Shown piece after piece: positions 5,465-31,331 of a DNA stretch of 64,000 nucleotides. The DNA comes from Pseudomonas taiwanensis (GTDB taxonomy: Bacteria; Pseudomonadota; Gammaproteobacteria; Pseudomonadales; Pseudomonadaceae): NCBI RefSeq assembly GCF_013393345.1, contig NZ_QJRF01000075.1:62001-126000 (forward strand). The letters are read 5' to 3'. Position 1 is the stretch's first letter, and each line of letters begins with the position of its first letter. The notes beneath the pieces were generated by a model, which had not been told where the DNA came from, made no database searches, and was given only the letters and a program-made list of their open reading frames with translations. The position numbers and the translations under genes were made by a program.

Positions 5465-5508
5465 TAGTCCCATTGGACGATGCCCCCCTTTGGACCTGCG
5501 GATTTAAT
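5465..5508 (+). promoter_or_regulatory. Candidate steroid operator and promoter 1
   Basis: TAGTCC-CATT-GGACGA (5465-5480) is an inverted repeat. After exactly 22 bases comes TTTAAT (5503-5508), a -10-like hexamer. The site lies 88 bases before the hsaC-type ATG. Three further copies with the same layout precede the other steroid transcription units at 24309, 31109 (minus) and 31288. Assignment as a regulator site is inference from this recurrence. Confidence 0.65.
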
Positions 5509-5568
5509 CCATCCCCATAGTGCCCCGTGCCCCGAGTGCGCGGCGATAACGACAATGAGGAGAACCGC

Positions 5569-6462
5569 ATGGATATCCGTGGCCTGGGTTACGTCACCGT
5601 AGCCTCGACAGACCTGAAGCGCTGGGGCGATTACGCCACCGGGGTGCTCGGCATGATGGTGGATGCCGTCGCGGACGAGCGGCTCTACCTGAAGATGGAC
5701 GAACGCCCCTACCGCATCCTGGTGGAACGTGCCGACCACGACGGCTATGGCGCCTGCGGCTGGGAAGTCGCCGGCAAGGCCGCCTTCGAACAGGCCATCG
5801 CCGAGCTGCAACAGGCCGATGTGCAGGTCCAGCGCGCCAGCGCTGTCGACGCCGCCGGCCGCAAGGTGCAGGAACTGGCGCGCTTCGCCGACCCGGATGG
5901 CAACCGCCACGAACTGTTCTGGGGCCCGCAGCAGAATTTCGCGCCCTTCGTCTCCCCGGTCGGTGTCAGCGGTTTCATTACCAGCGACCTCGGTATGGGT
6001 CATGCCGTATTGCCGGCACCTTCCTTTGACCGCTGCCTGGACTTCTACGAGCGGGTCATGGGCTTCGGTCTCTCCGACCTGATGAAAGTGCGCTTCACCC
6101 CTGATCCGGCCGAGCCGGAAAAGCGCATCCATTTCCTCCACTGCAACAACGGTCGCCATCACTCCCTGGCGCTGTTCGAGTGCCCGATTCCTTCGGGCTG
6201 CGTGCACCTGATGGTGGAAGTGGGCGAGCTGGACGACGTGGGCCGCGCCCTGGATCGCATGCACGCCAGCGGCGTGAAGCTCTCGGCCACCCTCGGCCGC
6301 CACACCAACGACGACATGACCAGCTTCTACATGCAGACGCCAGGCGGCTTCGACCTGGAGTACGGCTGTGGCGGCAAGGTCATGGACTGGGAGCGCCACA
6401 CCCCCTTCGAGAGCACCGTGGTCAGCCACTGGGGCCATGACTTCAGCGTCGGCCGTCAATAA
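5569..6462 (+). CDS. hsaC: Extradiol ring-cleavage dioxygenase, steroid type (3,4-DHSA dioxygenase)
   Basis: A 297-residue type I extradiol dioxygenase of two vicinal-oxygen-chelate halves. Iron ligands are visible as His145 in MGHAVLP, the HH pair at 197-198 in RHHSLALFE and Glu264 in FDLEYGCGG. The enzyme would open the catecholic A ring of 3,4-dihydroxy-9,10-secosteroid (HsaC in actinobacteria, TesB in Comamonas). The ATG at 5569 has GAGGAGAACC in front, better than an upstream in-frame start. It is the first gene of an operon with hydrindane-degrading genes. Biphenyl-type substrates are a less likely alternative given the neighbours. Confidence 0.8.
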   Translation: MDIRGLGYVTVASTDLKRWGDYATGVLGMMVDAVADERLYLKMDERPYRILVERADHDGYGACGWEVAGKAAFEQAIAELQQADVQVQRASAVDAAGRKVQELARFADPDGNRHELFWGPQQNFAPFVSPVGVSGFITSDLGMGHAVLPAPSFDRCLDFYERVMGFGLSDLMKVRFTPDPAEPEKRIHFLHCNNGRHHSLALFECPIPSGCVHLMVEVGELDDVGRALDRMHASGVKLSATLGRHTNDDMTSFYMQTPGGFDLEYGCGGKVMDWERHTPFESTVVSHWGHDFSVGRQ

Positions 6463-6474
6463 GGAGCCGCCCCC

Positions 6475-7356
6475 ATGGACAAACGCATGACTGCTGCCGA
6501 CGTCGTCGGCCAGCTGAGCGACGGCATGACTATCGGCATCGGCGGCTGGGGCCCCAGGCGCAAGCCGATGGCCCTGGTGCGCGAGATTCTGCGCTCCGAC
6601 CTCAAGGACCTCACGGTGGTCGCCTATGGCGGTGCCGACGTCGGCATGCTCTGTGCGGCCGGCAAGGTGAAGAAGCTGGTCTACGCCTTCGTGTCGCTGG
6701 ACTTCATCCCGCTCGAACCCTACTTCCGCAAGGCCCGCCAGGACGGCGCGGTGCAGGTCATGGAGATCGACGAAGGCATGCTGCTGCTCGGCCTCAAGGC
6801 CGCGGCCATGGGCGTGCCGTTCATTCCCACCGCCGTGGGCCTGGGCACCGACGTACTGAGCATCAACCCGGAGCTGAAACTGGTCAGCTCACCCTACGAC
6901 GACAGCCGCGACTGGGTCGCCATGCCGGCGCTGAAACTCGATGCGGCACTCGTCCATGTCGACCGCGCCGACGCCCGTGGCGTCTGCCAGATCGCCGGTC
7001 CCGACCATTACATGGACGACCTTTTCGTGCGCGCTGCCCAGAAGGCCTTCGTAAGTTGCGACGAACTGGTCGACAGTGCCTGGTTCCATGAGGACCCGGC
7101 CCGCGCCCGCCAGGTGTTCTGGGAGCGCAACCGCACCAGCGCCGTGGTGCATCTGCCGGGCGGCGCCCATCCGTCGTCCTGTGCGCCGCTCTACGGCTTC
7201 GATACCGCTCACTTCAAGGCCTACAACGCCTCGGCCACCGAGCCGGATGGCTGGCAGGCCTACATGGAGCGCTACGTGAACTGCGGGGAAGCGGAGTACC
7301 TCGCGCGTGTAGGTGGCCTGGATGCCATCCGCCAACTGCCGCTCCCGGTTTTCTGA
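6475..7356 (+). CDS. ipdA: IpdA-type CoA-transferase family subunit (COCHEA-CoA hydrolase alpha)
   Basis: This 293-residue protein belongs to the class I CoA-transferase alpha fold: GMTIGIGGWGPRRKPMALVREI near residue 17 and a conserved VMEIDEGMLLLGLKAAAMGVPFIPT segment near residue 95. Together with the next gene it matches IpdAB, which in Mycobacterium opens the last steroid ring as a hydrolase rather than transferring CoA. The proteobacterial equivalent is ScdL1L2. It starts 12 bases after the dioxygenase stop and is translationally close to ipdB. Functional assignment comes from family and gene context. Confidence 0.8.
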   Translation: MDKRMTAADVVGQLSDGMTIGIGGWGPRRKPMALVREILRSDLKDLTVVAYGGADVGMLCAAGKVKKLVYAFVSLDFIPLEPYFRKARQDGAVQVMEIDEGMLLLGLKAAAMGVPFIPTAVGLGTDVLSINPELKLVSSPYDDSRDWVAMPALKLDAALVHVDRADARGVCQIAGPDHYMDDLFVRAAQKAFVSCDELVDSAWFHEDPARARQVFWERNRTSAVVHLPGGAHPSSCAPLYGFDTAHFKAYNASATEPDGWQAYMERYVNCGEAEYLARVGGLDAIRQLPLPVF

Positions 7357-7366
7357 GGACGCTGAG

Positions 7367-8179
7367 ATGACTGCCACCAAACAACCCTACAGCCTCGCTG
7401 AACTGATGATCTGCGCCGCCTCCGAAGCGTTCGCCGGTGACGGTGAGGTGCTCGCCACTGGTATCGGCGTGCTCCAGCGCCTGGCCGCGTCGCTGGCGAT
7501 GCTCAATTCCAATGCCGAATTGATGATGACCGACTCCGAAGCCTTCATGGTCGCCGAGCCGGTACCCATCGGCCCGCGTGGCGGCTACCAGCCGAAGTTC
7601 GACAGCTGGATGGGCTTCTCGCGCATTTTCGATAACGTCTGGAGCGGCAAGCGCCATGCCCTGGTAGGGCCGGTGCAGATCGACCGCTTCGGCCAGGCCA
7701 ACATCTCCTGCATCGGCGAACACGCCAAACCGAAGTCGCAAATGCTCGGCGTACGTGGCTTCCCCGGCAACTCCATCAGCCACGCCAACTCGTTCATGGT
7801 GTCCAGCCACAACAAGCGCGTGTTCGTCGATGGCGAAGTGGATGTGGTGGCGTCGGTCGGCTACAACCCCGAGCGCCTCGCCCGTGGCTGGTCGCTGGAC
7901 GAGATCGATATCCGCATGATCGTCACCGACCTCTGCGTACTCGACTTCCAGGGGCCGGACCGGCAGATGCGCATCCGCTCCCTGCACCCCGGCGTCAGCG
8001 TGGAAGACGTGCAGGCCGCTACCAGCTTCCCGCTGCACGTGCCGGACTCCATCCCGACCACCGCCGCACCGACCCTTGAGCAACTGATCCTCATCCAGCA
8101 GCTGGACCCGCACAACCTGCGTGCCAGCCAGCTCAAGGACAATCCGCCGGGCGTCCGCGCTCCGGCCATGACCCACTGA
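7367..8179 (+). CDS. ipdB: IpdB-type CoA-transferase family subunit (COCHEA-CoA hydrolase beta)
   Basis: A 270-residue beta partner of IpdA with the segments YSLAELMICAASEAF at the start, EPVPIGPRGGYQPKFDSWMG in the middle and SVEDVQAATSFPLHVPDSIPTT near the end, typical of glutaconate-CoA-transferase-like beta subunits. I use the ATG at 7367, preceded by GAGGACGCTGAG and lying 10 bases after the ipdA stop; a longer in-frame start would overlap ipdA. IpdA and IpdB form one enzyme in steroid C/D-ring breakdown. High confidence for the family, moderate for the exact substrate. Confidence 0.8.
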   Translation: MTATKQPYSLAELMICAASEAFAGDGEVLATGIGVLQRLAASLAMLNSNAELMMTDSEAFMVAEPVPIGPRGGYQPKFDSWMGFSRIFDNVWSGKRHALVGPVQIDRFGQANISCIGEHAKPKSQMLGVRGFPGNSISHANSFMVSSHNKRVFVDGEVDVVASVGYNPERLARGWSLDEIDIRMIVTDLCVLDFQGPDRQMRIRSLHPGVSVEDVQAATSFPLHVPDSIPTTAAPTLEQLILIQQLDPHNLRASQLKDNPPGVRAPAMTH

Positions 8180-8194
8180 GGCGGAGCCGCACAC

Positions 8195-9064
8195 ATGAGC
8201 CACGAACAGGCCGCAGAAGCAGACGTGGTGCAGTACGAGGTGCAAGGGCCGCTGGCCCTGGTCACCATGCACCGCCCCGAGTACCACAACGCGCAGAACT
8301 CGCGCATGACCTATGCCCTGGACGCCGCCTTCCGCCGCGCCTGCGACGATGACGCGGTCAAGGTCATCATCCTGCGCGGTGCCGGCAAGCACTTCTCCGC
8401 CGGTCACGACATCGGCACGCCCGGCCGCGACGTCAACCAGAGCTTCGAACGCACCAGCCTCTGGTACGACCACGTGAACAAGCCGGGTGGAGAATTCCTC
8501 TACGCCCGCGAGCAGGAGGTCTACCTCGGCATGTGCCGGCGCTGGCGCGACATGCCCAAGCCGACCATCGCCATGGTGCAGGGCGCCTGCATCGCCGGCG
8601 GCCTGATGCTCGCCTGGGTCTGCGACCTGATCATCGCCTCGGAAGACGCCTACTTCGCCGATCCGGTGGTGCGCATGGGCATTCCAGGCGTCGAGTACTT
8701 CGCCCATGTGCACGAACTGAATCCGCGCATCGCCAAGGAATTCCTCTTCCTCGGTGAACGCATGGGCGCCGAGCGTGCGTACCAGATGGGCATGGTCAAC
8801 AAGGTGGTGCCGCGCGACGTGCTGGAAGACGTGACCCTGGACGTGGCCCGGCGCATTGCGCAGATGCCGCGCCTGGGCCTGCAACTGACCAAGCAGGCGG
8901 TGAACAACGCCGAGGACCTGATGGGCAAGCGCGCCACCATGGACATGGTGTTCGGCCTGCATCACTTCGCCCATGTGCACAACGAACTGGTCAGCGGCGA
9001 CAAGCTCGGCGGCTACGACGCCCGTGGCATGGCGCAGTCCCAGCGCAACCCGTCGGAGGCGTGA
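8195..9064 (+). CDS. Enoyl-CoA hydratase/isomerase family protein (crotonase)
   Basis: A 289-residue crotonase with the CoA-binding segment KHFSAGHDIGTPG near residue 66 and the oxyanion-hole segment GACIAGGLMLAW near residue 129. It is longer than the second crotonase of this operon and has an extended C-terminal region ending in an alpha-helical His-rich stretch. It lies between ipdB and the ipdC-type gene, and its stop codon overlaps the next start by one base (TGATG). Likely a hydratase of a steroid-ring acyl-CoA; which step is not clear. Confidence 0.75.
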   Translation: MSHEQAAEADVVQYEVQGPLALVTMHRPEYHNAQNSRMTYALDAAFRRACDDDAVKVIILRGAGKHFSAGHDIGTPGRDVNQSFERTSLWYDHVNKPGGEFLYAREQEVYLGMCRRWRDMPKPTIAMVQGACIAGGLMLAWVCDLIIASEDAYFADPVVRMGIPGVEYFAHVHELNPRIAKEFLFLGERMGAERAYQMGMVNKVVPRDVLEDVTLDVARRIAQMPRLGLQLTKQAVNNAEDLMGKRATMDMVFGLHHFAHVHNELVSGDKLGGYDARGMAQSQRNPSEA

Positions 9065-10131
9065 TGGCGATTTCACTCGATACCCGCCTGACCCGACTGC
9101 TGGGTTGCCGCTACCCGATCATCCAGACCGCCATGGGCTGGGTGGCCGATCCGAAACTGGTGGCGGCCACCGGCAACGCGGGCGGCTTCGGCTTCCTCGC
9201 CGGGGCCACCATCGAACCGCAACACATGGAAGCGGCCATCCTCGAGACGAAGCGGCTGACCGACCAGCCGTTCGGCGTCAACTTCCACATGTACCAGGCC
9301 AACGCCGGCGAGATCGTCGAACTGGTGCTCAAGCACGGCGTGCGCGCGGTGAGCTACAGCCGCTCGCCCGGCAAGGCGATGATCACCCGGCTGAAGGATG
9401 CAGGCGTCGTCTGCATACCCACCGTGGGCGCCCTGAAGCACGCAGTGAAGGCCGTGGAGATGGGTGCCGACGCCGTGACCGTGCAAGGCGGGGAGGGCGG
9501 TGGTCACACCGGTTCGGTTCCCACCTCGATCCTGCTCGGCCAGGTCGTGGATGCCGTCGAAGTTCCGGTGGTCGCCGCTGGCGGCTTCAAGGACGGGCGC
9601 GGCCTGGTGTCGGCCCTGGCCCTCGGCGCCGAGGGTATCGCCATGGGCACGCGCTTTTTGATGAGCGCCGAGAGCCCGGTGCCGCCGGCCACCCTGGAGC
9701 GCTACCTGAAGGTGCGTGATCCGGCCTCCATCATCGTCAGCCGCGCCATCGACGGCATGCCGCAGCGGATGATCCGCAACGAGCTGCTCGACAGTCTGGA
9801 ACGCTCCGGCGGCCTCAAGCGCCTTTTGCTGGCCCTGCGCAGTGCCCTGGCCTACCGCCGCCACAGTGGCGCCAGCATCGGCCAGTTGCTCGGCAGCGCC
9901 CTGAAGCTCGGCGGCGCAGATGGCCTGACCGCCGCGCAGACGCTGATGGCCGCAAACGCGCCCATGGTGATCCAGAAAGCCATGGTCGAGGGCTTGCCGG
10001 CAGCGGGCGTGCTCCCCGCCGGACAGATCGCCGCCAGCATCGACAGCCTGCCGGGCTGTGCCGAACTCATCGAATCCATCGTGCAGCAGGCCGAGCAGCG
10101 ACTCGCCGAGCTGTGCCGCCGTGCATCCTGA
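9064..10131 (+). CDS. ipdC: IpdC-type FMN-dependent reductase (nitronate monooxygenase family)
   Basis: A 355-residue TIM-barrel flavoprotein of the 2-nitropropane dioxygenase/NMO superfamily. Visible hallmarks are the substrate loop PIIQTAMGWVADPKL near residue 18, GADAVTVQGGEGGGHTG near residue 140 and the phosphate-binding VVAAGGFKDGRG near residue 170 followed by GAEGIAMGTRFL. In steroid degraders such proteins (IpdC) act on hydroxylated indane-acyl-CoA intermediates before IpdAB. The ATG at 9064 overlaps the previous stop. A true nitronate monooxygenase is the alternative but is unlikely here. Confidence 0.75.
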   Translation: MAISLDTRLTRLLGCRYPIIQTAMGWVADPKLVAATGNAGGFGFLAGATIEPQHMEAAILETKRLTDQPFGVNFHMYQANAGEIVELVLKHGVRAVSYSRSPGKAMITRLKDAGVVCIPTVGALKHAVKAVEMGADAVTVQGGEGGGHTGSVPTSILLGQVVDAVEVPVVAAGGFKDGRGLVSALALGAEGIAMGTRFLMSAESPVPPATLERYLKVRDPASIIVSRAIDGMPQRMIRNELLDSLERSGGLKRLLLALRSALAYRRHSGASIGQLLGSALKLGGADGLTAAQTLMAANAPMVIQKAMVEGLPAAGVLPAGQIAASIDSLPGCAELIESIVQQAEQRLAELCRRAS

Positions 10132-10143
10132 GGGGAGAAGGCC

Positions 10144-10902
10144 ATGGCAACACCATTCAACGTCAGTCTCGACAACGGCATCGCCGAGATGGTCTTCGAC
10201 CATCCGCCGGTGAACGCCTTCGACAGCAAGGGCTGGGCCGCGATCGCCGCCGAGCTGGAACGCCTGGGCGCATTGGCCGAGGTGCGCGTCATCGTCATCC
10301 GTGCCGAGGGGCGGGGCTTCTGCGCCGGCGTCGACATCAAGGAACTGGCGGCTGACGGCAATCTGATCGTCGCCGTCAACAAGGGCAACTACGACAGCTT
10401 CAAGGCGGTCCACTGCAATCCCAAGCCGGTGATCATTGCCGTGCACGGCTTCGTCCTCGGCGGCGGCATCGGCCTGTGCGGCGCGGCGGACATCCTGGTC
10501 GCCTCCGACTGCGCGCGTTTCGGCGTGCCTGAAGTGGACCGTGGCGCCATGGGCGGCGGCGCTCACCTGCAGCGCCTGTTCCCGGTGCAGAAAGTGCGCC
10601 ACATGTATTTCACCGGCGAAATGATCGACGCGGCCGAGGCGTACCGACTGGGCGCCGTGGAGCGCGTGGTACCCCGCGCTGAATTGCGTGAGGCGGCCCT
10701 GGACATCGCTCGCAAGATCGCCGCCAAGAGCCCGGCCATGATCGCCCTGGCCAAGGAGGCGCTGACCGGTATCGAGGACGGCAACCTCGAAGACAAATAC
10801 CGCTGGGAGCAGGGCTTCACCCTGCAGGCCTATCGCTCGCTGGATTCCCAGGAAGCCCGCGATGCCTTCGTCGACAAGCGCACTGCCACCTTCAAGGGCT
10901 AA
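10144..10902 (+). CDS. echA20: EchA20-type crotonase (ring hydrolase)
   Basis: A 252-residue crotonase-fold protein with PPVNAFDSKGW near residue 21, RAEGRGFCAGVDIKEL near residue 55 and HGFVLGGGIGLCGAADI near residue 101. This combination, in particular the GVDIKE and GGGIGL segments, is what I recall of EchA20, the hydrolase that opens the D-ring ketone of the hydrindane intermediate in cholesterol breakdown. It follows ipdC and precedes an acyl-CoA dehydrogenase pair. An ordinary enoyl-CoA hydratase is possible; catalytic residues were not checked structurally. Confidence 0.7.
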   Translation: MATPFNVSLDNGIAEMVFDHPPVNAFDSKGWAAIAAELERLGALAEVRVIVIRAEGRGFCAGVDIKELAADGNLIVAVNKGNYDSFKAVHCNPKPVIIAVHGFVLGGGIGLCGAADILVASDCARFGVPEVDRGAMGGGAHLQRLFPVQKVRHMYFTGEMIDAAEAYRLGAVERVVPRAELREAALDIARKIAAKSPAMIALAKEALTGIEDGNLEDKYRWEQGFTLQAYRSLDSQEARDAFVDKRTATFKG

Positions 10903-10906
10903 AGCC

Positions 10907-12073
10907 ATGGAACTGACCTACACATCCGAACAGCGGGCCTTCCGTGAGGAGGTCCGCGCCTGGCTGGCGGCCAATGTACCGGCTGAACAGCTGCAATCCT
11001 TCGACTGCGAAGAAGGCTTCCGCCAGCACCGCGCCTGGGAAGCGAAGCTCAACGAAGGTCGTTGGGGCATGGTGACCTGGCCCAAGGAACTCGGCGGTCG
11101 CGGCTGCGACCTGATCGAGTGGCTGATCTTCGAAGAGGAGTACTACCGCGCCGGCGCCCCGGCACGGGTCAACCAGAATGGCATCTTCCTGCTCGGCCCG
11201 ACCCTGATGGAGTTCGGCACCGCCGCGCAGCAGGAGCGCTTCCTGCCGAAGATGGCCACCGGTGAAGAAATCTGGGCCCAGGGCTGGTCCGAACCGAACG
11301 CCGGTTCCGACATGGCGGCCATCCGCTGCCGCGCCGAGCGCAAGGGCGATGTTTATGTGATCAACGGCCAGAAGACCTGGTCGACCCGCGCCGTCTGGGC
11401 CGACTGGTTGTTCGGCCTGTTCCGCAGCGACCCTCAGTCCAGCCGCCACCACGGCCTGACCTTCATCCTCCTGCCGCTGAACAGCCCCGGCATCACCGTG
11501 CGCCCGATCCCGCAGCTCAACGGCCTGCCGGGCTTCGCCGAAATCTTCTTCGACGACGTGGAAGTGCCTGTGGATAACGTGCTGGGCGGGGAAGGCATGG
11601 GCTGGCATGTGGCGATGTCCACCGCCGGCTTCGAACGCGGCCTGATGCTGCGCTCGCCGGCGCGCTTCCAGGAAACCGCACGGCGTCTGGTGCAGCTCTA
11701 CCTGGCCAACCGCGAGCAGGCCGACCTCGACCCGGCCATCGGCGAAGCGGTGATGCGCGCCTGGATGGACGCCGAGGCCTACACCCTGAACACCTACATG
11801 ACCGCTTCGCGGCTGGGGAAGGGCGGCAAGATCGGCCCGGAATCCTCCACCAACAAGATCTTCTGGTCCGAGCTGGATCAGCGCATGCACGAGACGGCGC
11901 TGTCGATCCTCGGCCTGCGCGGCGAACTGCTGCCCCACGCGCCGGATGCCGGCGAGGTCGGTCACTGGCTGGACGGCTTCCTGTTCGCCCAGGCCGGCCC
12001 GATCTATGCCGGCACCAACGAGATTCAACGCAACATCATCGCCGAGCGCATGCTCGGCATGCCGCGAGCTTGA
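10907..12073 (+). CDS. Acyl-CoA dehydrogenase, alpha-type subunit
   Basis: A 388-residue flavin-dependent acyl-CoA dehydrogenase. It has WGMVTWPKELGGRG near residue 50, the FAD-binding AQGWSEPNAGSDMA near residue 124 and the C-terminal YAGTNEIQRNIIAERMLG. The next gene encodes a shorter relative that lacks this last motif, so the two probably form one heteromeric enzyme, as known for steroid-degrading acyl-CoA dehydrogenases. The start codon is four bases after the previous stop. It likely introduces a double bond in a hydrindane-derived CoA ester. Confidence 0.8.
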   Translation: MELTYTSEQRAFREEVRAWLAANVPAEQLQSFDCEEGFRQHRAWEAKLNEGRWGMVTWPKELGGRGCDLIEWLIFEEEYYRAGAPARVNQNGIFLLGPTLMEFGTAAQQERFLPKMATGEEIWAQGWSEPNAGSDMAAIRCRAERKGDVYVINGQKTWSTRAVWADWLFGLFRSDPQSSRHHGLTFILLPLNSPGITVRPIPQLNGLPGFAEIFFDDVEVPVDNVLGGEGMGWHVAMSTAGFERGLMLRSPARFQETARRLVQLYLANREQADLDPAIGEAVMRAWMDAEAYTLNTYMTASRLGKGGKIGPESSTNKIFWSELDQRMHETALSILGLRGELLPHAPDAGEVGHWLDGFLFAQAGPIYAGTNEIQRNIIAERMLGMPRA

Positions 12074-12083
12074 GGAGCGCGCC

Positions 12084-13136
12084 ATGGACTTCACCTTCAG
12101 CGACGACCAACTGCTGTTCCAGGACAATGTGCGCGCCTTCCTCACCAACGAAGTGATCCCGGAGCGCATCCGCGAGCTCTGGCGCACCGAGAGCGGCCGC
12201 AGCGACGAGCTCTGGGCCCAGCTCACGGAACTGGGCCTCACCGCCCTGACCGTGCCGGACGGCTTCGGAGGCCTGGACATGAACGAACTGGACTTCATCC
12301 TGCTGGCCCAGGAGTGTGGCTACGCGGGCCTGCCCGAGCCCCTGGTGGACACCATGCTCATCGGCGTGCCGCTGCTCGCCGCCCTGACGAACCAGCTCGA
12401 CCTGCAAGGCGAATGGCTGACCCGCATCGCCGAGGGCAAGGCTCGAATCGCTGTGGGCGAGCCGGGCAACCCGCTGGTGGCGGACGCCCATGTGGCCGAT
12501 CTGTTGCTGCTGCCCCATGGCGATGAAGTACACGCCGTGCTGCCCGAGCAGGTGAAGCTCACCCGCAACGAATCGGTGGACCCGAGCCGCCAGCTGTTCC
12601 GTGTCGACTGGACGCCGAGCGCGCAAACCTGTGTGGCCGAAGGCGAACAGGGTCGAGCGCTCTGGGCGGCTGCGAAAAACCGAGGCGCGCTGGGCACCGC
12701 CGCCCAGCTGCTTGGCCTGGCCAAACGCATGGTCGACCTTGCGGTGGACTACAGCTTCGAGCGCAAGCAGTTCGGCAAGCCGGTGGGTTCCTTCCAGGCC
12801 GTGAAGCACCTGATGGCCAACGTCGCGGTCCTGATCGAGTTCGCCAAAGGCCCGCTCTATCGTGCCGCCCATGCCGTCGCCCAGAACCTTCCGGAACAGG
12901 ACGTACAGGTTTCCCACGCCCGCCTCGCCTGCACCGAGGCAGCATTGCTCGCGGCGAAGAACGCCATCCAGACCCACGGCGCCATGGGATACACCTGGGA
13001 AGTCGACCTGCAGCTCTTCATGAAACGCGCCTGGGCCCTGGACAAAGTCTGGGGCGACCGCGGCTGGCACAAGGCGCGGGTACGCCAAGCGCTGTTTTCC
13101 GGCGCTGTCCAGCCGGGGGCTGGGAATACCTTCTGA
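12084..13136 (+). CDS. Acyl-CoA dehydrogenase, beta-type subunit
   Basis: A 350-residue acyl-CoA dehydrogenase relative with the N-terminal helix FTFSDDQLLFQDNVRAFL and the C-terminal THGAMGYTWEVDLQLFMKRA. The middle beta domain is shortened and the xGTNEIQRN motif of the partner is missing, typical of the second chain in heteromeric steroid acyl-CoA dehydrogenases. GAGGAG sits 8 bases before the ATG, and the gene starts 10 bases after its partner. It is followed by a repeat-filled gap before the thiolase. Confidence 0.78.
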   Translation: MDFTFSDDQLLFQDNVRAFLTNEVIPERIRELWRTESGRSDELWAQLTELGLTALTVPDGFGGLDMNELDFILLAQECGYAGLPEPLVDTMLIGVPLLAALTNQLDLQGEWLTRIAEGKARIAVGEPGNPLVADAHVADLLLLPHGDEVHAVLPEQVKLTRNESVDPSRQLFRVDWTPSAQTCVAEGEQGRALWAAAKNRGALGTAAQLLGLAKRMVDLAVDYSFERKQFGKPVGSFQAVKHLMANVAVLIEFAKGPLYRAAHAVAQNLPEQDVQVSHARLACTEAALLAAKNAIQTHGAMGYTWEVDLQLFMKRAWALDKVWGDRGWHKARVRQALFSGAVQPGAGNTF

Positions 13137-13145
13137 CCCTTCCTG

Positions 13146-13260: not shown

Positions 13261-13302
13261 AAGTTTTCCTTTACTCCAATCCTGACCATCCGAGACCACC
13301 TC

Positions 13303-23994: not shown

Positions 23995-24308
23995 GGCTGA
24001 ACCCTGTACTTGGCCAGGACTTGACGATGCGCTGATATCGCCTCATTAACGCGCAAATTGCTGGTTCATGAGGCGCGGCTATGTCAACCAAGACAGTCCC
24101 CACCACGCCGCCGGCCTGAACCAACCCGTCTCTTCACACATCAATAAATGCCCCTTCCAGGGGTACGCCCACCGTGCAAACCAGTAAGTTGTCATTACTT
24201 GCTGGCCCCTCGTTGGGTTTCGCTGCGCTCTACCCAACCTACGGCCGCCAAGCAGCATTGAGTGCACACACCTACACATTTATCCCGCCACAACGGCCAT
24301 TCCCCTCG
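23995..24308. other. Intergenic stretch with hairpin and repeat arm
   Basis: No gene is supported. GCCTCAT ... ATGAGGC (about 24046-24074) is a loose inverted repeat after the decarboxylase gene that may act in termination, and 24211-24243 carries GTTGGGTTTCGCTGCGCTC, a copy of the repeat arm found near 1700-1804. Confidence 0.45.
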
Positions 24309-24352
24309 TCGTCCATCCGGACGATTCCCCCTCCAGCACAACTCGCCAGACT
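24309..24352 (+). promoter_or_regulatory. Candidate steroid operator and promoter 2
   Basis: TCGTCC-ATCC-GGACGA (24309-24324) is a perfect palindrome apart from its centre. After the same 22-base gap as at the other sites comes CAGACT (24347-24352), a weak -10-like hexamer. The site is 77 bases before the acyl-CoA dehydrogenase ATG. Confidence 0.6.
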
Positions 24353-24401
24353 CCTTCGCACCAGGGGCGTTCGCCCCGAGAGTCACTAGAAGGCAAGCGT
24401 T

Positions 24402-25559
24402 ATGGAATTCGCGTTCAGCGATGAGCAGGAGATGATCCGCGAGTCCGCCGAGAGCTTTCTCGCGGATGTATCCGACTCCGCCGCCGTGCGTGCGGCAATG
24501 GCCAGCGACCTTGGCCATGACCCGGCGCTCTGGCAGCGCGTATGCAGCGAGATGGTCTGGCCGGCCATCCATATTCCCGAAGCCTATGGCGGCCTCGGCT
24601 TGGGCTTCGTCGAACTGGCGATCCTGCTGGAGCAGATGGGCCGCCGCCTGTTCTGCTCGCCGTTCTTTGCCAGTGCTTGCCTCGCCACCCCGGCCCTGCT
24701 GCTGGGCGGGAGCGAGGAGCAGAAAGCGAAATGGTTACCGCAACTGGCCGAAGGCAGCCTGACGGCTACCCTGGCGTACGCCAGCAATACCCGTAACGGG
24801 CTGGATTCGGTACAGGCCAATGTGCGCGATGAGGGCAAAGGCTTTGTCCTCGATGGCAAGCTGCGCCAGGTGATCGATGGCCACAGCGCTGGCTTGCTGA
24901 TCGTGGCGGCTCGGGGTAGCGAGGGCATCGGCCTGTTCGTCATTCCGTCTGACACGCCGGGCATCAGCCGCAGGCTGGTACCGACCCTGGACCAGACCCG
25001 CAAACTGGCCGAAGTCGAACTCAACCATGTTTACGTGGGTGCCGATGCTGCGCTCGGCATCCCGGGGCAGGGCGGTGAGCTGCTGGAGAAAGTCCTCCAA
25101 CTGGCTTGCGTGGCCTTGGCCGCCGAGCAGACCGGCGGCGCCCAGCAGTCCCTGGACCTGACCCTGGCCTACACCGCCGAGCGGCAGCAGTTCGGTCGCG
25201 CCATCGCCAGCTTCCAGGCCATCAAGCACCGCGCCGCCGACATGATGCTGGAGGTGGAATGCGCGCGTTCGGCGGCCTTGTATGCCGCCTGTGTGGCCGA
25301 AGAAGTCCTGGCCGGCAATGGCGACCCGGACGTCGCCGCCGAACTGCCCCTGGCCGCCGCCCTCGCCAAGTCGCGCTGCTCGGAGGCCTTCTTCCATTGC
25401 GCGGCGGAATCCATCCAGTTGCATGGCGGCGTCGGCTTCACCTGGGAGTACGACCCGCACCTCTACTTCAAGCGCGCCCGGGCCAGCGAAGCCCTGTTCG
25501 GCGCGCCGTCCTGGCACCGCGAGCGCATCGCCGTCGCCCTCCTGGGGGAATACGCATGA
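24402..25559 (+). CDS. Acyl-CoA dehydrogenase, beta-type partner of FadE30-like protein
   Basis: A 385-residue acyl-CoA dehydrogenase with EFAFSDEQEMIRESAESFL at the start, IPEAYGGLGLGFVELAILLEQMG near residue 57 and the C-terminal IQLHGGVGFTWEYDPHLYFKRA. It lacks the GTNEIQRN motif that the next gene has, the same division seen in the pair at 10907-13136. Its stop overlaps the next start (ATGA), so the two chains are coupled and probably heteromeric. It is first in the second steroid operon. Confidence 0.78.
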   Translation: MEFAFSDEQEMIRESAESFLADVSDSAAVRAAMASDLGHDPALWQRVCSEMVWPAIHIPEAYGGLGLGFVELAILLEQMGRRLFCSPFFASACLATPALLLGGSEEQKAKWLPQLAEGSLTATLAYASNTRNGLDSVQANVRDEGKGFVLDGKLRQVIDGHSAGLLIVAARGSEGIGLFVIPSDTPGISRRLVPTLDQTRKLAEVELNHVYVGADAALGIPGQGGELLEKVLQLACVALAAEQTGGAQQSLDLTLAYTAERQQFGRAIASFQAIKHRAADMMLEVECARSAALYAACVAEEVLAGNGDPDVAAELPLAAALAKSRCSEAFFHCAAESIQLHGGVGFTWEYDPHLYFKRARASEALFGAPSWHRERIAVALLGEYA

Positions 25560-26743
25560 AGATCAGTTTCAGTGAGGCCGACGAAGCCTTCCGTCGCGAG
25601 GTGGCCGGCTGGCTGGCCGACAACCTTTGCGGTGAGTTCGAAACGCTGCGCTTTCGCGGTGGACCGGGCGACGAACACAGCTTTCCCGAGGAGCGTAAGG
25701 CCTGGGAGCGCAAGCTCGCCGAAGGGGGCTGGACCTGTGTGGGCTGGGCGCCGGAACACGGTGGGCGCGGTCTTTCCATCAACCAGCAGGTGATCTTCCA
25801 CGAGGAGTACGCCCGGGCTGGCGGTCCTGGCCGCATGGGGCACATCGGTGAGGGACTGGCCGGGCCGACCATCGCCGCCTTTGGCACCGACGATCAAAAG
25901 CGCCGCCTGCTGCCGGGCATCGTCGCCGGCACCGAGTTCTGGTGCCAGGGCTACTCCGAGCCCGCCGCGGGCTCTGACCTGGCCAACGTGAAGACCCGCG
26001 CCGTGCTGGAAAACGGCCAGTGGCGCATCAGCGGGCAGAAGGTCTGGACCTCGCTCGCCCACGAATCCGAATGGTGCTTCGTCATTGCCCGTACCGAGGC
26101 GGGTAGCGTCGGCCACCAGGGGTTGTCGTTCCTGCTGGTGCCCATGCACCAGCCGGGCATCACGGTACGCCCCATCGAGCAGCTCACCGGCACCTCCGAG
26201 TTCAACGAAGTGTTCTTCGACGAGGCGCTGACCGACGCCGACAACATTCTCGGCGCGCCGGGCGATGGCTGGAAGATCGCCATGGCCCTGCTCGGCTTCG
26301 AGCGCGGCGTGTCCACCCTCGGCCAGCAGATGCTGTTCCAGAATGAACTGGAAGAGATCATCCAGATCGCCCGCACCAATGGCGCCGCGCGTGACCCGTT
26401 GCTGCGCCAGCGTATCGCTGAAGCCTGGGGCGGACTGCGCATCCTGCGCTACAACTCCCTGCGCATGCTTTCCGGTGCCCAGGATGGCGGGCTGCGCCGC
26501 GAGGCGATGATCTACAAGCTGTGCTGGGCCAACTGGCACGTGGCCCTGGGCAAGCTGGCCATGGACGTGCTCGGCCCCGACGCCGAACTGCTGGAAGACG
26601 GGCCGTACCAACTCGGCCGACTGCAGTCGATGTTCCTCTTCAGCCGCTCCGACACCATCTACGGCGGCACCAACGAAATCCAACGCAACATCATCGCCGA
26701 ACGCGCGCTGGGCATGCCCCGCGAGCCGCGCGTGCGCGCCTGA
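25556..26743 (+). CDS. fadE30: Acyl-CoA dehydrogenase, FadE30 type
   Basis: A 395-residue acyl-CoA dehydrogenase with WTCVGWAPEHGGRGLSINQQ near residue 57, CQGYSEPAAGSDLANVKTRA near residue 131, the substrate-face segment FERGVSTLGQQMLFQNEL near residue 248 and YGGTNEIQRNIIAERALGMP at the C-terminus. The sequence is strongly like FadE30, which dehydrogenates the propionyl side chain of the hydrindane intermediate HIP-CoA. It is followed by the ipdF-type gene, the same functional neighbourhood as in actinobacteria. Confidence 0.8.
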   Translation: MKISFSEADEAFRREVAGWLADNLCGEFETLRFRGGPGDEHSFPEERKAWERKLAEGGWTCVGWAPEHGGRGLSINQQVIFHEEYARAGGPGRMGHIGEGLAGPTIAAFGTDDQKRRLLPGIVAGTEFWCQGYSEPAAGSDLANVKTRAVLENGQWRISGQKVWTSLAHESEWCFVIARTEAGSVGHQGLSFLLVPMHQPGITVRPIEQLTGTSEFNEVFFDEALTDADNILGAPGDGWKIAMALLGFERGVSTLGQQMLFQNELEEIIQIARTNGAARDPLLRQRIAEAWGGLRILRYNSLRMLSGAQDGGLRREAMIYKLCWANWHVALGKLAMDVLGPDAELLEDGPYQLGRLQSMFLFSRSDTIYGGTNEIQRNIIAERALGMPREPRVRA

Positions 26744-26757
26744 CCCGAGGACCTTGC

Positions 26758-27540
26758 ATGAGCACTCCCACCTACGTTCCCGGCCACGGCCTGCTGCGCG
26801 GCAAGTCGGTGCTGATCACCGCCGCCGCTGGTGCCGGTATCGGTTTCTCCGCCGCCCTGCGTGCCGCTGAGGAAGGCTGCCGGGCGATGATGATCAGCGA
26901 TATCCATGAAGGCCGCCTGCAGGAAGCGGCAGCAAAGATCCGCGAAGCCACTGGGCTTGAGCGCGTCCATACCTGCGTGTGCAACGTCACCAACGAAGAG
27001 CAGGTGCAGGCCCTGGTAGCCGCCGCCGAGCGCGAACTGGGCGGCGTCGATGTGCTGATCAACAACGCCGGCCTCGGCGGTTCGCGCCTGCTGGTGGAGA
27101 TGGGCGATGAGGAGTGGAATCGCGTCCTCGACGTGACCCTCACCGGCACCATGCGCATGACCCGCGCCATGCTGCCGAAGATGATGGATCGCGGTCGCGG
27201 TGTGATCGTCAACAACGCTTCGGTCCTCGGCTGGCGCGCGCAGAAGGAACAGAGCCACTACGCCGCGGCCAAGGCCGGTGTCATGGCCCTGACCCGCTGC
27301 GCAGCAGTGGAAGCGGCCGAGCATGGCATCCGCATCAACGCGGTAAGCCCGAGCATCGCCCTGCACGACTTCCTGAAGAAATCCGCACCCAAGGAACTGC
27401 TGGATCAGCTCGCCTCCCGCGAAGCCTTCGGCCGCGCCGCTGAAGTCTGGGAAGTGGCCAACGTGATGATGTTCCTGGCCAGCGACTACAGCTCCTACAT
27501 GACCGGCGAAGTGCTGTCGGTCTCCAGCCAGAGGGCATAA
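26758..27540 (+). CDS. ipdF: IpdF-type short-chain dehydrogenase
   Basis: A 260-residue SDR starting MSTPTYVPGHGLLRGKSVLITAAAGAGIG; the AAAGAGIG cofactor loop and the GHGLL prefix are features I associate with IpdF, which oxidises or reduces the 5-hydroxyl of the hydrindane-CoA intermediate. The active site shows NNAG near residue 102, NNASVLG near residue 156 and YAAAKAG near residue 169. The ATG at 26758 follows GAGGACCTTGC. The following maoC-type gene starts two bases after its stop. Confidence 0.76.
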   Translation: MSTPTYVPGHGLLRGKSVLITAAAGAGIGFSAALRAAEEGCRAMMISDIHEGRLQEAAAKIREATGLERVHTCVCNVTNEEQVQALVAAAERELGGVDVLINNAGLGGSRLLVEMGDEEWNRVLDVTLTGTMRMTRAMLPKMMDRGRGVIVNNASVLGWRAQKEQSHYAAAKAGVMALTRCAAVEAAEHGIRINAVSPSIALHDFLKKSAPKELLDQLASREAFGRAAEVWEVANVMMFLASDYSSYMTGEVLSVSSQRA

Positions 27541-27542
27541 GC

Positions 27543-28001
27543 ATGTCGACGATCTTCGCGACACCGGCCGCCTTGCTGGAGCACGTTGGTGAACAGCTGG
27601 GCGTGAGCGACTGGATCAGCGTCGAGCAATCACGCATCGACCAGTTCGCTGAAGCTACCGGCGACCACCAGTGGATTCATGTGGACCCTGTCCGCGCCGC
27701 CACCGGCCCCTTCGGCGCCTGCATCGCCCACGGCTACCTGACCCTGGCCCTGGTCAACCTCTTCCTGCCGCAGATAGTCGAGGTGCGCGGCATCTCCATG
27801 GGGGTGAACTACGGCTGCGAGAAGGTGCGCTTCCCCAACGTCGTCCGTGCCGGCAGCCGCGTGCGCGGCAGCGCCCAACTGGTCGCCGCCGAAGAAGTGA
27901 AGGGCGGCATTCAGGCCACCATCCGCGTCAGCGTGGAGATCGAGGGCGAAGAGCGGCCGGGCTGCGTGGTGGACACCATCAGTCGGTATTACTCGGCCTG
28001 A
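27543..28001 (+). CDS. MaoC-like (R)-specific enoyl-CoA hydratase
   Basis: A 152-residue single hot-dog protein with the hydratase motif FAEATGDHQWIHVDPVRA at residues 36-53, where Asp and His are the catalytic pair, followed by GPFGACIAHGYLTLAL. Length and motif fit the Rv0130/HtdZ type of MaoC dehydratases. It would hydrate the enoyl-CoA produced by the FadE30 pair. It is tightly linked to ipdF, but a 153-base gap with a palindromic repeat separates it from the thiolase downstream. Confidence 0.83.
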   Translation: MSTIFATPAALLEHVGEQLGVSDWISVEQSRIDQFAEATGDHQWIHVDPVRAATGPFGACIAHGYLTLALVNLFLPQIVEVRGISMGVNYGCEKVRFPNVVRAGSRVRGSAQLVAAEEVKGGIQATIRVSVEIEGEERPGCVVDTISRYYSA

Positions 28002-28015
28002 TCCCGCTTTTTCCC

Positions 28016-28114
28016 TGTGGGGGCGAATTCATTCGCTAAAGGGCAGCGCAGCTGCCCCTTCAGGCCTTGCAGGGCAGACCTGCGGTCTGCATAGCGAATG
28101 AATTCGCCCCCACA
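28016..28114. repeat. Palindromic repeat element, GGGGGCGAATTCATTCGCT family, complete copy
   Basis: Perfect 22-base inverted arms (28016-28037 and 28093-28114) enclose a 55-base centre with GCAGCGCAGCTGC and GCAGACCTGCGGTCTGC, themselves palindromic. Another full copy with one-arm identity is at 31162-31259. The element lies between two genes of one operon, 40 bases before the thiolase ATG. Confidence 0.8.
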
Positions 28115-28154
28115 AAGAAGCCATAGCCGGCCAACGAATTTCGAGGACAACCCA

Positions 28155-29357
28155 ATGAAAGAAGCCGTACTCGTATCCACCGCCCGCACCCCCATCGGCA
28201 AGGCCTTCCGGGGTGCCTTCAACGACACCGAAGCGCCGCTGATGGGCGGCCATGTGGTGCGCGAAGCACTGCGTCGTGCCGGTGTCGAAGGGGGCGAAGT
28301 GGACGACGTGATCATGGGCGCCGCCGCCCAGCAGGGCACCCAGGCCTATAACCTCGGCCGCCTCTGCGCGGTGGCCGCCGGGCTGCCGTCCAGCGTCGCC
28401 GGCATGGCCGTGGAACGTCAGTGTTCTTCCGGTCTGATGAGCATTGCCCTGGCCGCCAAGAGCATCATGTGCAACGAGATCGACATCGCTGTTGCCGGTG
28501 GCCTGGAGTCCATCTCCCTGGTGCAGAACAAGCACAAGAACAGCTACCGCAACCAGTCCGAAGCGGTGCTGGCGCAGGATCCGCGCGCCTACATTCCGAT
28601 GATCGAGACGGCGGAAATCGTCGCCGAGCGCTACGGCATCTCCCGCGAGGCCCAGGACGAATACAGCTACCAGAGCCAGATGCGCACCGCCCTGGCGCAG
28701 AGCGCAGGTCTGTTCGATACCGAGCTGGCGCCACTGACCGTACGCAAGCTGGTGACGGACAAGGCCACCGGCGAAAGCCGTCATGAATCCGTGACCCTCA
28801 CGCGCGACGAATGCAACCGTGCCGATACCACCCGCGAAAGCCTGCGCGCCCTGGAGCCCGTGTGGCAGGGCGGCCAGTGGAGCGGTGCCGGTCGCTTCAT
28901 CACCGCCGGCAACGCCTCGCAGCTTTCCGACGGCGCCAGTGCTTCGGTGCTGATGAGTTCGCGCGAGGCCGAGCGCCGGGGCCTGGAACCCCTGGGCATC
29001 TACCGCGGCCTGGCGGTGGCGGGCTGCGATTCCGATGAGATGGGCATCGGCCCGGTGTTCGCCATTCCCAAGCTGCTCAAGCGCCACGGCCTGACGATGG
29101 ATCACATTGGCCTGTGGGAGCTGAACGAGGCGTTCGCCTGCCAGGTCATCCACTGCCGCGACACCCTGGGGATTCCCGACGAGCGCCTGAACGTCAACGG
29201 CGGTGCCATTTCCATCGGCCATCCCTTCGGCATGTCCGGCGCGCGCATGGTCGGCCACGCGCTGGTCGAGGGCAAGCGCCGTGGTCTTCGCTACGTGGTG
29301 GTAAGCATGTGCATTGGTGGTGGCATGGGTGCCGCCGCTCTGTTCGAAGTGGCTTGA
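28155..29357 (+). CDS. Acetyl-CoA acyltransferase (thiolase)
   Basis: A 400-residue thiolase with the nucleophilic cysteine in [11 protein letters not shown] near residue 90, [15 protein letters not shown] near residue 324, [18 protein letters not shown] near residue 350 and CIGGGMGAA near residue 387. The substitution of the usual GHPLG by GHPFGMSG is seen in several non-fatty-acid thiolases. It follows FadE30-, IpdF- and MaoC-like genes, so it probably releases acetyl- or propionyl-CoA from the steroid hydrindane side chain. It differs clearly from the FadA6-type thiolase at 13303. Confidence 0.8.
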
Positions 29358-29367
29358 GGAAACTCCG

Positions 29368-29757
29368 ATGATCAGTCCAAAACAAGTACAAGAAACCATG
29401 GCCCGCTACGTCGAACTGGTGGACGCCTGCGATATCGACGGCATCGTCGCGCTCTACGCCGCCGATGCCACCGTGGAAGACCCCGTTGGCAGCCCGCCCC
29501 ATGTGGGCATCGAGGCCATCGACCGCTTCTACCGCGAGGGGCTGGGCCGCGCCAACGCTCGTGCTCGCCGCACCGGCCCGGTTTCCGCCAGCCACGCCGG
29601 CAGCGGAGCGGTGCCCTTCTGCGTGGACCTGGTGTGGAACGGTGCGCCGTGCTCCATCCAGGTGATCGACGTGATGGAGTTCGACGCCGAAGGTCGCATC
29701 CGCTCCATGAAAGCCTTCTGGGGCGAGGCCAACCTGGTGGCGAGGGACGCATCATGA
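29368..29757 (+). CDS. ksi: Delta5-3-ketosteroid isomerase
   Basis: A 129-residue NTF2-fold enzyme with the complete ketosteroid isomerase site: Tyr14 in ARYVELVD, Asp38 in ATVEDP and Asp101 in VIDVMEF, aligning with Tyr16, Asp40 and Asp103 of the classical Pseudomonas putida enzyme. Other segments (HVGIEAIDRFYREGLG, RTGPVSASHAGSGAVPF) are also those of true isomerases. It moves the C5-C6 double bond of 3-keto-delta5 steroids into conjugation at the start of ring degradation. Start ATG at 29368 lies 10 bases after the thiolase stop. This is the strongest single marker that the region degrades steroids. Confidence 0.93.
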   Translation: MISPKQVQETMARYVELVDACDIDGIVALYAADATVEDPVGSPPHVGIEAIDRFYREGLGRANARARRTGPVSASHAGSGAVPFCVDLVWNGAPCSIQVIDVMEFDAEGRIRSMKAFWGEANLVARDAS

Positions 29758-30197
29758 GCCTTGAGGCGCGCATCGCCGGATTGGAAGCGCTGGAAGCCAT
29801 CCGCCTGCTCAAGCACCGCTACTTCAACGCCTGCGACCTCAAGGACGTTGAGGCGATTCGCGAGTGCTTCGCTGAAGGTCCCATCGCCATCGACTACGGC
29901 CCGGTGGGCACCTTCCAGGAGCGCGACAGCTTTGTCGCGCTCTACCAAGCTCTGGCCTGCAACGAACGGGTGATCGACCTGCACCACGGCGCCAACCCGG
30001 AAATCGAGCTGGCGGGGGAGGGCGAAGCGGTCGGACGCTGGGCGCTCTACTACTTCAACCTCGACGCCGAGACGCGTGCCACGCGGCAACTGGGTGGGAT
30101 TTACCAGGATCGTTATCGGTGCATCGATGGGCGCTGGAAGATCGTCGAGACGGTGTTCAGGGCGAATTCGATGGTGGAGTCCGCTGCGACCACTTGA
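29754..30197 (+). CDS. SnoaL/NTF2-like protein, possible hydroxysteroid dehydratase
   Basis: A 147-residue NTF2-like protein whose ATG overlaps the isomerase stop (ATGA). It has EAIRLLKHRYFNACDLKD near residue 13, a pattern seen in scytalone-dehydratase and BaiE-like proteins, a possible catalytic His pair in DLHHGANPEI near residue 81, and WALYYFNLD ... QLGGIYQDRYRCIDGRWKI in the C-terminal half. It is not an isomerase, as the Tyr/Asp/Asp set is absent. Known bile-acid degraders use such a protein (Hsh2) as a 7-alpha-hydroxysteroid dehydratase; I infer that role only from family and position. Confidence 0.7.
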   Translation: MSLEARIAGLEALEAIRLLKHRYFNACDLKDVEAIRECFAEGPIAIDYGPVGTFQERDSFVALYQALACNERVIDLHHGANPEIELAGEGEAVGRWALYYFNLDAETRATRQLGGIYQDRYRCIDGRWKIVETVFRANSMVESAATT

Positions 30198-30269
30198 TGG
30201 GTATCGCTCCGCTCCACCGCATCCTACGAAGTCTGTCCGTAGGATGGGTGGAGCTTGCGATACCCATCA
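30195..30269. terminator. Long perfect hairpin between convergent genes
   Basis: TGATGGGTATCGC (30195-30207) pairs with GCGATACCCATCA (30257-30269), and inside CATCCTACG pairs with CGTAGGATG. The stem begins on the stop codon of the NTF2-like gene and ends six bases before the stop of the convergent SDR gene, so it serves both as a bidirectional end structure. There is no T-run. Confidence 0.65.
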
Positions 30270-30274
30270 GCCTT

Positions 30275-31048
30275 TCAGTTCGCCCCCGCCGCATCCAGAA
30301 ACGCCGGCTTCTCCCCACCCCCATGCACGCAGATATCCGCGCCGCTCACATAGCTGGACAGCTTCGACGCCAGGTACAGGCACGCATCGCCAATGTCCTC
30401 CGGGCTGGCCATGCGCTGCAGGGGAATCCCTGCCGCCACCCGCGCCACGCCCTCGGCATCGCCGTAGTGCAGTTCGGCCTGCTCGGTGAGGATCAGCCCC
30501 GCCGTTACCGCATTCACCCGTACCTTCGGCGCCCATTCCACAGCGAGGGAACGGGTCAGGTTGAGCAAGCCAGCCTTGGCTGCGCCATAGGCGGCGGTGC
30601 CGGGAGAGGGGCGGGTGGCGCTGACGCTGCAGATGTTGACGATGGCGCCGCCGCCCGGCTGCTCCTGCATCACCCGGTTGGCCAGTTGGCAGAGGTTGAG
30701 CGGCGCCAGCAGGTTGAGGCGGATGATGGATTCCGAGAAGCGCGGCGACGCCGTGGCAGCCTCGGCATGGGGCGCGCCGCCGGCGTTGTTCACCAGCACG
30801 TCGAGACGGCCGAAGCGGTCTACGACGGCATTCACCAACTGCTGGATCTGCTCGATGTCCCGCACGTCGCAGGGCAGGAAGTGCGCCTCGCGGCCAGCAT
30901 GGCTCGGCAACTGGTCCGGCGCATTGCGGCCACAGATCACCACCTCGGCACCACAGGCAAGGAAGCGCTGGCTGATACCCCGACCCACGCCCTTGCCGCC
31001 TCCGGTCACCAGTACCACTTTGCCGCTGAAATCCAATGCATCGCCCAT
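30275..31048 (-). CDS. Short-chain dehydrogenase, steroid-cluster type
   Basis: A 257-residue SDR: TGGGKGVGRGISQRFLACGAEV near residue 15, NNAGGAPH near residue 88, the catalytic serine in NICSVSATRPS near residue 139 and YGAAKAGLLNLTRSLAVEWAP near residue 155, ending with the conserved GADICVHGGGE. It is transcribed away from the hsaD-type gene and carries its own copy of the steroid operator 61 bases upstream. Substrate unknown; hydroxysteroid or hydroxyacyl-CoA oxidation are the obvious options. Confidence 0.78.
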   Translation of the reverse strand: MGDALDFSGKVVLVTGGGKGVGRGISQRFLACGAEVVICGRNAPDQLPSHAGREAHFLPCDVRDIEQIQQLVNAVVDRFGRLDVLVNNAGGAPHAEAATASPRFSESIIRLNLLAPLNLCQLANRVMQEQPGGGAIVNICSVSATRPSPGTAAYGAAKAGLLNLTRSLAVEWAPKVRVNAVTAGLILTEQAELHYGDAEGVARVAAGIPLQRMASPEDIGDACLYLASKLSSYVSGADICVHGGGEKPAFLDAAGAN

Positions 31049-31080
31049 GGCTGCCTCGTTAGTCGGTTGTCGATGGGCAG

Positions 31081-31124
31081 AGGCTAGGGCGAGCAGGGCG
31101 GGGTGCCTACGTCCGGGAGGACTA
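31081..31124 (-). promoter_or_regulatory. Candidate steroid operator and promoter 3 (for the SDR gene)
   Basis: On the minus strand TAGTCC-TCCC-GGACGT occupies 31124-31109, and after 22 bases TAGCCT (31086-31081) stands at the position of the -10 hexamer of the other three sites. It lies 61 bases before the SDR start codon and mirrors site 4 across the divergent region. Confidence 0.6.
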
Positions 31125-31161
31125 GGGCAATGCGAGGCACAGGCCCTGTGGGGGCACTCCT

Positions 31162-31259
31162 TGTGGGGGCGAATTCATTCGCTAAGGGCAGCGCAGCTGC
31201 CCCCCAGGGCCTTGCCGGGCAGACCTGCGGCCTGCATAGCGAATGAATTCGCCCCCACA
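31162..31259. repeat. Palindromic repeat element, GGGGGCGAATTCATTCGCT family, complete copy
   Basis: Perfect 22-base inverted arms at 31162-31183 and 31238-31259, with a centre nearly identical to that of 28016-28114. The element sits between the two divergent steroid promoters. Confidence 0.8.
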
Positions 31260-31287
31260 GAAAAAGCGGGATCACCGTATGGGTTGC

Positions 31288-31331
31288 TAGTCCTCTCGGA
31301 CGATGTTGCCCACCGGAGCGCGCCGAATAAT
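31288..31331 (+). promoter_or_regulatory. Candidate steroid operator and promoter 4 (for hsaD operon)
   Basis: TAGTCC-TCTC-GGACGA (31288-31303) followed after 22 bases by AATAAT (31326-31331). The layout is base-for-base the same as at 5465-5508, including CC after the -10 hexamer. It is 59 bases before the hsaD-type ATG. Confidence 0.65.

Follow-up and report, generated by a model that had tools for sequence, protein, structure and literature searches.

The stretch of DNA analysed here (the window) comprises 64,000 nucleotides of Pseudomonas taiwanensis (assembly GCF_013393345.1, contig NZ_QJRF01000075.1), corresponding to bases 62001-126000 of contig 68 in a genome of 6.7 Mb and 77 contigs. 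It carries four transcription units with steroid-catabolism-like first genes, each preceded by a short palindrome that we consider a putative operator. Genes were called with a small gene finder of our own, which misplaced some starts and, in diverged genomes, put some genes on the wrong strand. The first unit is headed by a TesB/HsaC-like extradiol dioxygenase (5569-6462, plus strand), upstream of which lie the operator TAGTCC-CATT-GGACGA (5465-5480, plus) and the -10-like hexamer TTTAAT (5503-5508, plus); this promoter is conserved within the genus and beyond it, as are the position of the hexamer and the T at its sixth base. An IpdE2/PimD-like acyl-CoA dehydrogenase (24402-25559, plus) heads the second unit, with the operator TCGTCC-ATCC-GGACGA (24309-24324, plus; one mismatch to the consensus) and the hexamer CAGACT (24347-24352, plus). 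The remaining two operators form a divergent pair. TAGTCC-TCCC-GGACGT (31124-31109, minus; one mismatch) and the hexamer TAGCCT (31081-31086, minus) precede a short-chain dehydrogenase/reductase (SDR; 30275-31048, minus), whilst TAGTCC-TCTC-GGACGA (31288-31303, plus) and AATAAT (31326-31331, plus) precede an HsaD/TesD-like alpha/beta hydrolase (31363-32190, plus), a promoter represented by 13 sites in the genus with the same hexamer (orthologous group abh). Among the four first genes the SDR alone passed a curated NCBIfam cut-off (NF005893), the other three being family-level calls below theirs. The first-pass annotation had described these 16-mers and their strands, with a hexamer starting exactly 22 bases past each, CC directly after three of the four, and a distance of 59-88 bases to the first gene. 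All of this was reproduced, the measured gaps to the start codons being 88, 77, 60 and 59 bp. Between the divergent promoters there is also a long inverted repeat, TGTGGGGGCGAATTCATTCGCT and its complement (31162-31183 and 31238-31259), which has the look of a REP element (repetitive extragenic palindrome).

The window contains the palindromic core GTCC-N4-GGAC exactly four times, always within these sites, a number that is itself only weakly unusual (1.44 expected; at least four in 8 of 100 shuffles). Chance fails to account for the bases flanking the core, for the location of the sites and for their spacing to the hexamers. A match to TAGTCC-N4-RGACGA with at most one mismatch was present within 150 bp upstream of four of the 59 predicted genes in the window and the next best gene had three mismatches, which bears out the earlier observation that no copy precedes the non-steroid genes. 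When scanned with a matrix of site and -10 hexamer, the four sites scored 24.6-29.5, compared with 13.1 for the best other match shown, which lies within a gene; the same sites read backwards scored up to 16.5.

The first-pass annotation had proposed to check whether matches in the whole genome fall only before steroid genes. The bare core, found at 157 places in the genome, was rejected as the motif because it is too common. The strict motif TMGTCC-N4-GGACGW was present at 18 places. The window holds four of these, contigs 54 and 63 hold three and four, respectively, and the other seven are scattered elsewhere. The 11 sites in these three steroid-type clusters are intergenic (one overlaps a predicted stop codon by 3 bases), and in ten of them a predicted start follows after 59-88 bp; the remaining one precedes a short reading frame missed by the gene finder. 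All seven remaining matches fall inside predicted, unrelated genes, and the site has therefore not spilled over to unrelated promoters. The first genes on contigs 54 and 63 include an HsaB-family-like flavin reductase, two SDRs, an EthD-domain protein, a polyketide-cyclase-like protein and a 3-ketosteroid-delta-1-dehydrogenase-like protein (best scores below cut-offs). The hexamer at 22 nt ends in T at all 11 cluster sites, and its second base is A at nine of them (contig 63:51862, a self-symmetric site, was read on the minus strand). Scanning approximately 230 kb around the three clusters with the matrix returned 18 places scoring at least 19.1, all intergenic and seven of them beyond the strict list, although this is a description rather than an independent test, since the sites scored were among the genus sites used to build the matrix; two of the 18 are weak, one having no start within 800 bp and the other a poor hexamer. 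These data support the earlier interpretation and suggest a regulon wider than first seen: the four steroid units are real, yet they are only part of it.

Conservation in related clusters had also been proposed as a check, and it was found across the genus. tesB was present in 13 of 18 genomes, which carried 8, 9, 7, 10, 9, 6, 9, 7, 9, 9, 9, 8 and 9 exact copies of TAGTCC-N4-GGACGA, compared with 1, 0, 1, 0 and 1 in the five genomes without tesB. We then grouped 398 Pseudomonadaceae genomes by their carriage of regulators resembling TeiR/TesR, the LuxR-type positive regulator of testosterone degradation in Comamonas testosteroni. TeiR-like proteins (E up to 1e-60) were detected in 66 of them. 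The 38 genomes with a regulator at least 70% identical to that encoded beside the contig 63 cluster (C63-type, the best conserved of the regulators described below) had 3-11 exact sites (mean 7.4), whereas the 332 without a TeiR-like match at E 1e-60 had 0-2 (mean 0.21); three or more exact sites were thus present in 38/38 of the former and 0/332 of the latter.

The tesB promoter was followed further afield with a profile search of a species collection, in which the best 80 of 142 relatives were used and the 250 bp before tesB scanned. Both beta- and gammaproteobacteria are represented (among them Paraburkholderia, Burkholderia, Ralstonia, Cupriavidus, Collimonas, Pseudoduganella, Pseudomonas and Endozoicomonas), and many of the loci are closely related to one another. 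The site before tesB was exact in 27, had one mismatch in 23, two in 29 and three in one, whilst in base-shuffled controls 15 of 1,600 reached two mismatches and none had fewer. All 79 loci with at most two mismatches had TG directly after the site and AAT closing the hexamer that starts at exactly 22 nt. Within 399 Burkholderiales genomes, seven had a tesB match; four of these matches were at least 55% identical, three of them with the site at 22 nt, and the other three were paralogues of 36-41% identity lacking it. In the Burkholderiales family to which one of these genomes belongs, tesB was identified in 7 of 349 genomes, and in all seven the site lies at 22 nt (G521 contributes to both sets). 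The same arrangement of site and promoter was observed on plasmids of Caballeronia, Burkholderia arboris and Vibrio alfacsensis. The 174-kb V. alfacsensis plasmid (L241) holds a row of genes headed by tesB, with the operator 22 nt before GATAAT and one TeiR-like gene, which suggests a mobile or transferable steroid module.

The geometry of these promoters was assessed using 111 distinct genus sites with their flanks. A filter on distance to the next gene kept 96 (92 in ten orthologous groups and four singletons) and dropped 15, comprising some promoters with a miscalled gene start and some sites inside genes. Averaged over orthologous groups, the -10 score was 3.96 at an offset of 22 nt, 2.01 at 23 and no more than 1.84 at any other offset between 8 and 45, and 22 was the best offset in nine of the ten groups. 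Hexamers with at least four of six matches to TTGACA, a count that considers the consensus only, occurred in 5 of 175 cases at a spacer of 17, 1 of 175 at 16, none at 18 or 19 and 14 at 15, indicating that a functional -35 element is probably absent from the regulon promoters. Counting the hexamer as -12 to -7 places the centre of the palindrome at -42.5 relative to the presumed start, which is approximately where lux boxes lie in class II promoters. We read the palindrome as an activator site that replaces the -35 element because of this position and the rarity of TTGACA-like hexamers, and on the position of the site we infer activation rather than repression. Several otherwise unrelated regulon promoters also have bases resembling ACAACAA(G) after the hexamer and ahead of the ribosome-binding site, for example at 31338-31349 of the window.

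Candidate readers of the site are encoded close to it. The genome has 37 GerE-domain matches, and the three weakest adjoin the three site clusters. All three belong to TeiR-like proteins of 376-387 residues that are 23-37% identical to one another, with a C-terminal GerE match above, and a PAS match below, the Pfam cut-offs. The C63-type gene lies on contig 63 (54286-55416) beside that cluster, the C54-type gene beside the cluster on contig 54, and the C68-type gene (L047:18091-19230, minus strand) has its start codon 0.8 kb left of the window. The matches listed for one of these regulators include close relatives from Pseudomonas alcaligenes (96%) and Metapseudomonas otitidis (92%). The first-pass annotation had envisaged a single LuxR-like regulator encoded outside the window; LuxR-type genes are indeed found there and co-occur with the sites, but a single regulator was not established because there are three paralogues. 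Weaker sites, recovered only by the matrix, precede the C54-type gene by 68 bp (L074:15766-15781; contig 54:25766) and the gene before the C63-type gene (contig 63:53012-53027), so that the regulators may belong to their own regulon.

Co-occurrence was then surveyed genome by genome for the TeiR-like family alone. A whole-genome search covering 34 of 83 tesB loci returned a TeiR-like match in 34/34 records. Across the Burkholderiales sets, a TeiR-like gene was present in 9/9 genomes with tesB of at least 55% identity and in 0/13 without, the latter being the three with paralogues only and ten of the 342 tesB-less family members. In six of the seven Burkholderiales-family genomes that have tesB, the regulator gene starts 17-19 kb downstream of it and in the same orientation (approximately 62 kb away in G985), whilst in the source genome the regulator genes are spread over three contigs and no such tesB-to-regulator cluster end was seen. 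A site with at most one mismatch was present within 1.5 kb of 26 of 30 regulator loci, compared with two matches around 30 other GerE genes of the source genome.

A structure model of the C63-type protein (mean predicted local distance difference test score 79, predicted template modelling score 0.59) consists, from the N-terminus, of an alpha/beta domain, a long helix, another alpha/beta domain and a helix-turn-helix; we read the two alpha/beta domains as GAF-like and PAS-like. A fold search gave weak matches to GAF proteins, phytochromes and LuxR/PAS regulators such as SdiA, TraR, VqmA and EL222, with whole-length template modelling scores of 0.19-0.35 among the matches listed, and no solved structure was related to the regulator by sequence at E 0.01. 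A small reading frame with its own site was observed 1.0 kb 3' of the C63-type gene (L077:11421-11594; contig 63:56421-56594). The predicted peptide is 57 residues long (66 if an upstream start is used) and contains two Cys and a hydrophobic segment; at 12 of 13 genus loci, as well as at several further loci of Pseudomonas, a comparable frame comes after the site.

The above results make it likely that a steroid-catabolism regulon under a TeiR/TesR-like GAF/PAS-LuxR activator has as its operator TAGTCC-N4-RGACGA, which as a rule is directly followed by TG. In the mechanism we propose, an activator with the predicted layout of GAF-like domain, long helix, PAS-like domain and GerE helix-turn-helix would bind the operator as a dimer in the presence of a steroid or of an intermediate of steroid degradation. 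With the -10 hexamer starting 22 nt past the site, the bound protein at approximately -42.5 would stand in for the absent -35 element and recruit sigma-70 polymerase directly, in the class II manner of lux boxes.

An operator adjoining the -35 region could also block polymerase, and the palindrome might instead bind a repressor, TetR/KstR-like or LuxR-type, that is released by steroids. In C. testosteroni, LuxR, TetR, PhaR and further repressors are reported to act on one steroid gene (PMC6678751 and PMC8700777). We nevertheless consider repression improbable, as the promoters lack the -35-like hexamer that a self-sufficient promoter would need, the spacing to the -10 hexamer is near-invariant over distant species, and the family of the co-occurring regulators has an activator as its known member. 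The prospect that the site is a mere chance pattern can practically be dismissed: its bare core is common, as the genome-wide and shuffled counts above illustrate, but the extended motif, its placement, the spacing and the conservation contradict that reading.

The identity of the reader invites two further alternatives. The C68-type regulator is the LuxR-type gene nearest the window sites, and its orthologues (72-92% identity) are found in 11 of the 12 other genus genomes with tesB, with a partial match of 71% in the twelfth. However, the gene has an in-frame stop in G001 and G005, possibly through assembly errors, despite nine sites in each of these genomes; close orthologues have N-T-x-R-[TS]-Q-L-R in the recognition region where the C54-, C63- and beta-type proteins share N-T-x-R-[AS]-H-L-R; and no site scoring above 19 precedes the gene in the matrix scan. 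We consider it quite unlikely that this protein reads the site; it may control something else, and among the three paralogues the C63-type fits best as the reader, with the C54-type second. Marginally less probable still is an unrelated, unlinked regulator, with the TeiR-like genes as mere fellow residents of steroid clusters. Co-occurrence is not binding, and tesB, the site and the TeiR-like gene travel together, but in the survey, which covered the TeiR-like family, most regulator loci (26/30) had a near-exact site of their own, and the 174-kb Vibrio plasmid holds tesB, the site and one TeiR-like gene.

Several observations weigh against control of the site by a TeiR-like activator. The four singleton promoters had their best offsets at 21, 23, 14 and 23 nt. 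The lone tesB locus without the site, in the Rhodospirillales metagenome-assembled genome L296, comes from a genome that has a TeiR-like gene, and the tesB of G673, at least 55% identical, also lacks an upstream site. In Cupriavidus basilensis OR16 the sole regulator match is interrupted by two in-frame stops. A second set of 15 regulator loci included two with a near-exact site, one of them probably due to chance; with only one likely real site among 15, autoregulation is not general. The 28 Pseudomonadaceae genomes with only diverged TeiR-like genes had 0-5 sites (mean 1.6), eight of them having none. Owing to the relatedness of the genomes compared, their sites are not independent observations, and test probabilities make them appear more independent than they are. 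Three clusters with diverged TeiR-like genes (G351, G342 and G225; L353-L358) were viewed directly and contained the same site, often with GATACT at 23 rather than 22 nt; by eye on predicted N-termini, those of G342 and G225 carry TesB- or IpdAB-like genes.

An activator reading agrees with the role of TeiR/TesR in C. testosteroni, where it is described as a positive regulator in PMC8399759, PMC6678751, PMC6895838, PMC8700777 and PMC13101464, the last also describing a cluster running from tesB to tesR. The shared features, as far as those descriptions go, are the LuxR-type C-terminus and the presumed positive control of tes genes, to which six of the seven Burkholderiales-family genomes, unlike the source genome, add a gene at the end of a tesB-headed cluster. 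What differs here is the operator, the promoter geometry, a regulon spanning several genera and the several paralogues per genome. The comparison was made with published descriptions: no match named C. testosteroni TeiR/TesR was among the best 120 of each of two protein searches, and no Comamonas was among the best 80 of 142 tesB loci. Unpublished data cited in PMC8399759 indicate that deletion of one of two TeiR-like genes in strain Chol1 delays growth on cholate. A statement in PMC6895838 that tesR-like genes occur only in C. testosteroni sits badly with TeiR-like proteins in 66 of 398 Pseudomonadaceae genomes.

The lux box of luxI is a 20-bp element in a class II promoter. The promoters here resemble that type in having a dyad at approximately -42.5 (from presumed starts), no -35 element and a regulator with a GerE helix-turn-helix, but they differ from luxI in a 16-bp dyad of another sequence, a GAF/PAS input in place of an acyl-homoserine lactone domain and a catabolic rather than quorum role. 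The operators of KstR and KstR2 in Actinobacteria are unrelated in sequence to TAGTCC-N4-RGACGA. What is described of those systems is similar in that one palindromic operator marks a dispersed steroid-catabolism regulon; they differ in relying on TetR-type repressors, and a self-sufficient promoter with a -35 element was not found here. The regulator family is known, whilst the operator is without a description in the literature searched: no account of the site or of a TeiR operator was found among the matches listed, most subscription papers, including the original TeiR work, lying outside that search.

Two further genes of the window have no site before them: a methyl-accepting chemotaxis protein gene near tesB (1819-3426, minus) and a CheB-type gene past the last steroid unit (35346-36407, minus).

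In sum, these results point to a 12-base operator that is shared by many bacteria of soil and water and has fixed geometry and a low background, with a mean of 0.21 exact matches per genome free of TeiR-like matches, which makes the regulatory question directly testable. With the operator, regulon members can be predicted in each genome; it also points to the regulator family, suggests a promoter for steroid biosensors and marks steroid-catabolic clusters and plasmids. We see about an even chance that it represents an ancient operator-promoter code kept across beta- and gammaproteobacteria whilst genes, operons and replicons were reshuffled. Such a code would be read by one to five GAF/PAS-LuxR regulators per genome with a common DNA-reading helix, which would compete or divide labour on one box, each perhaps sensing a different steroid intermediate, and its unrecognized members would include the conserved small peptide, secreted or membrane-bound, that is encoded next to the C63-type regulator.

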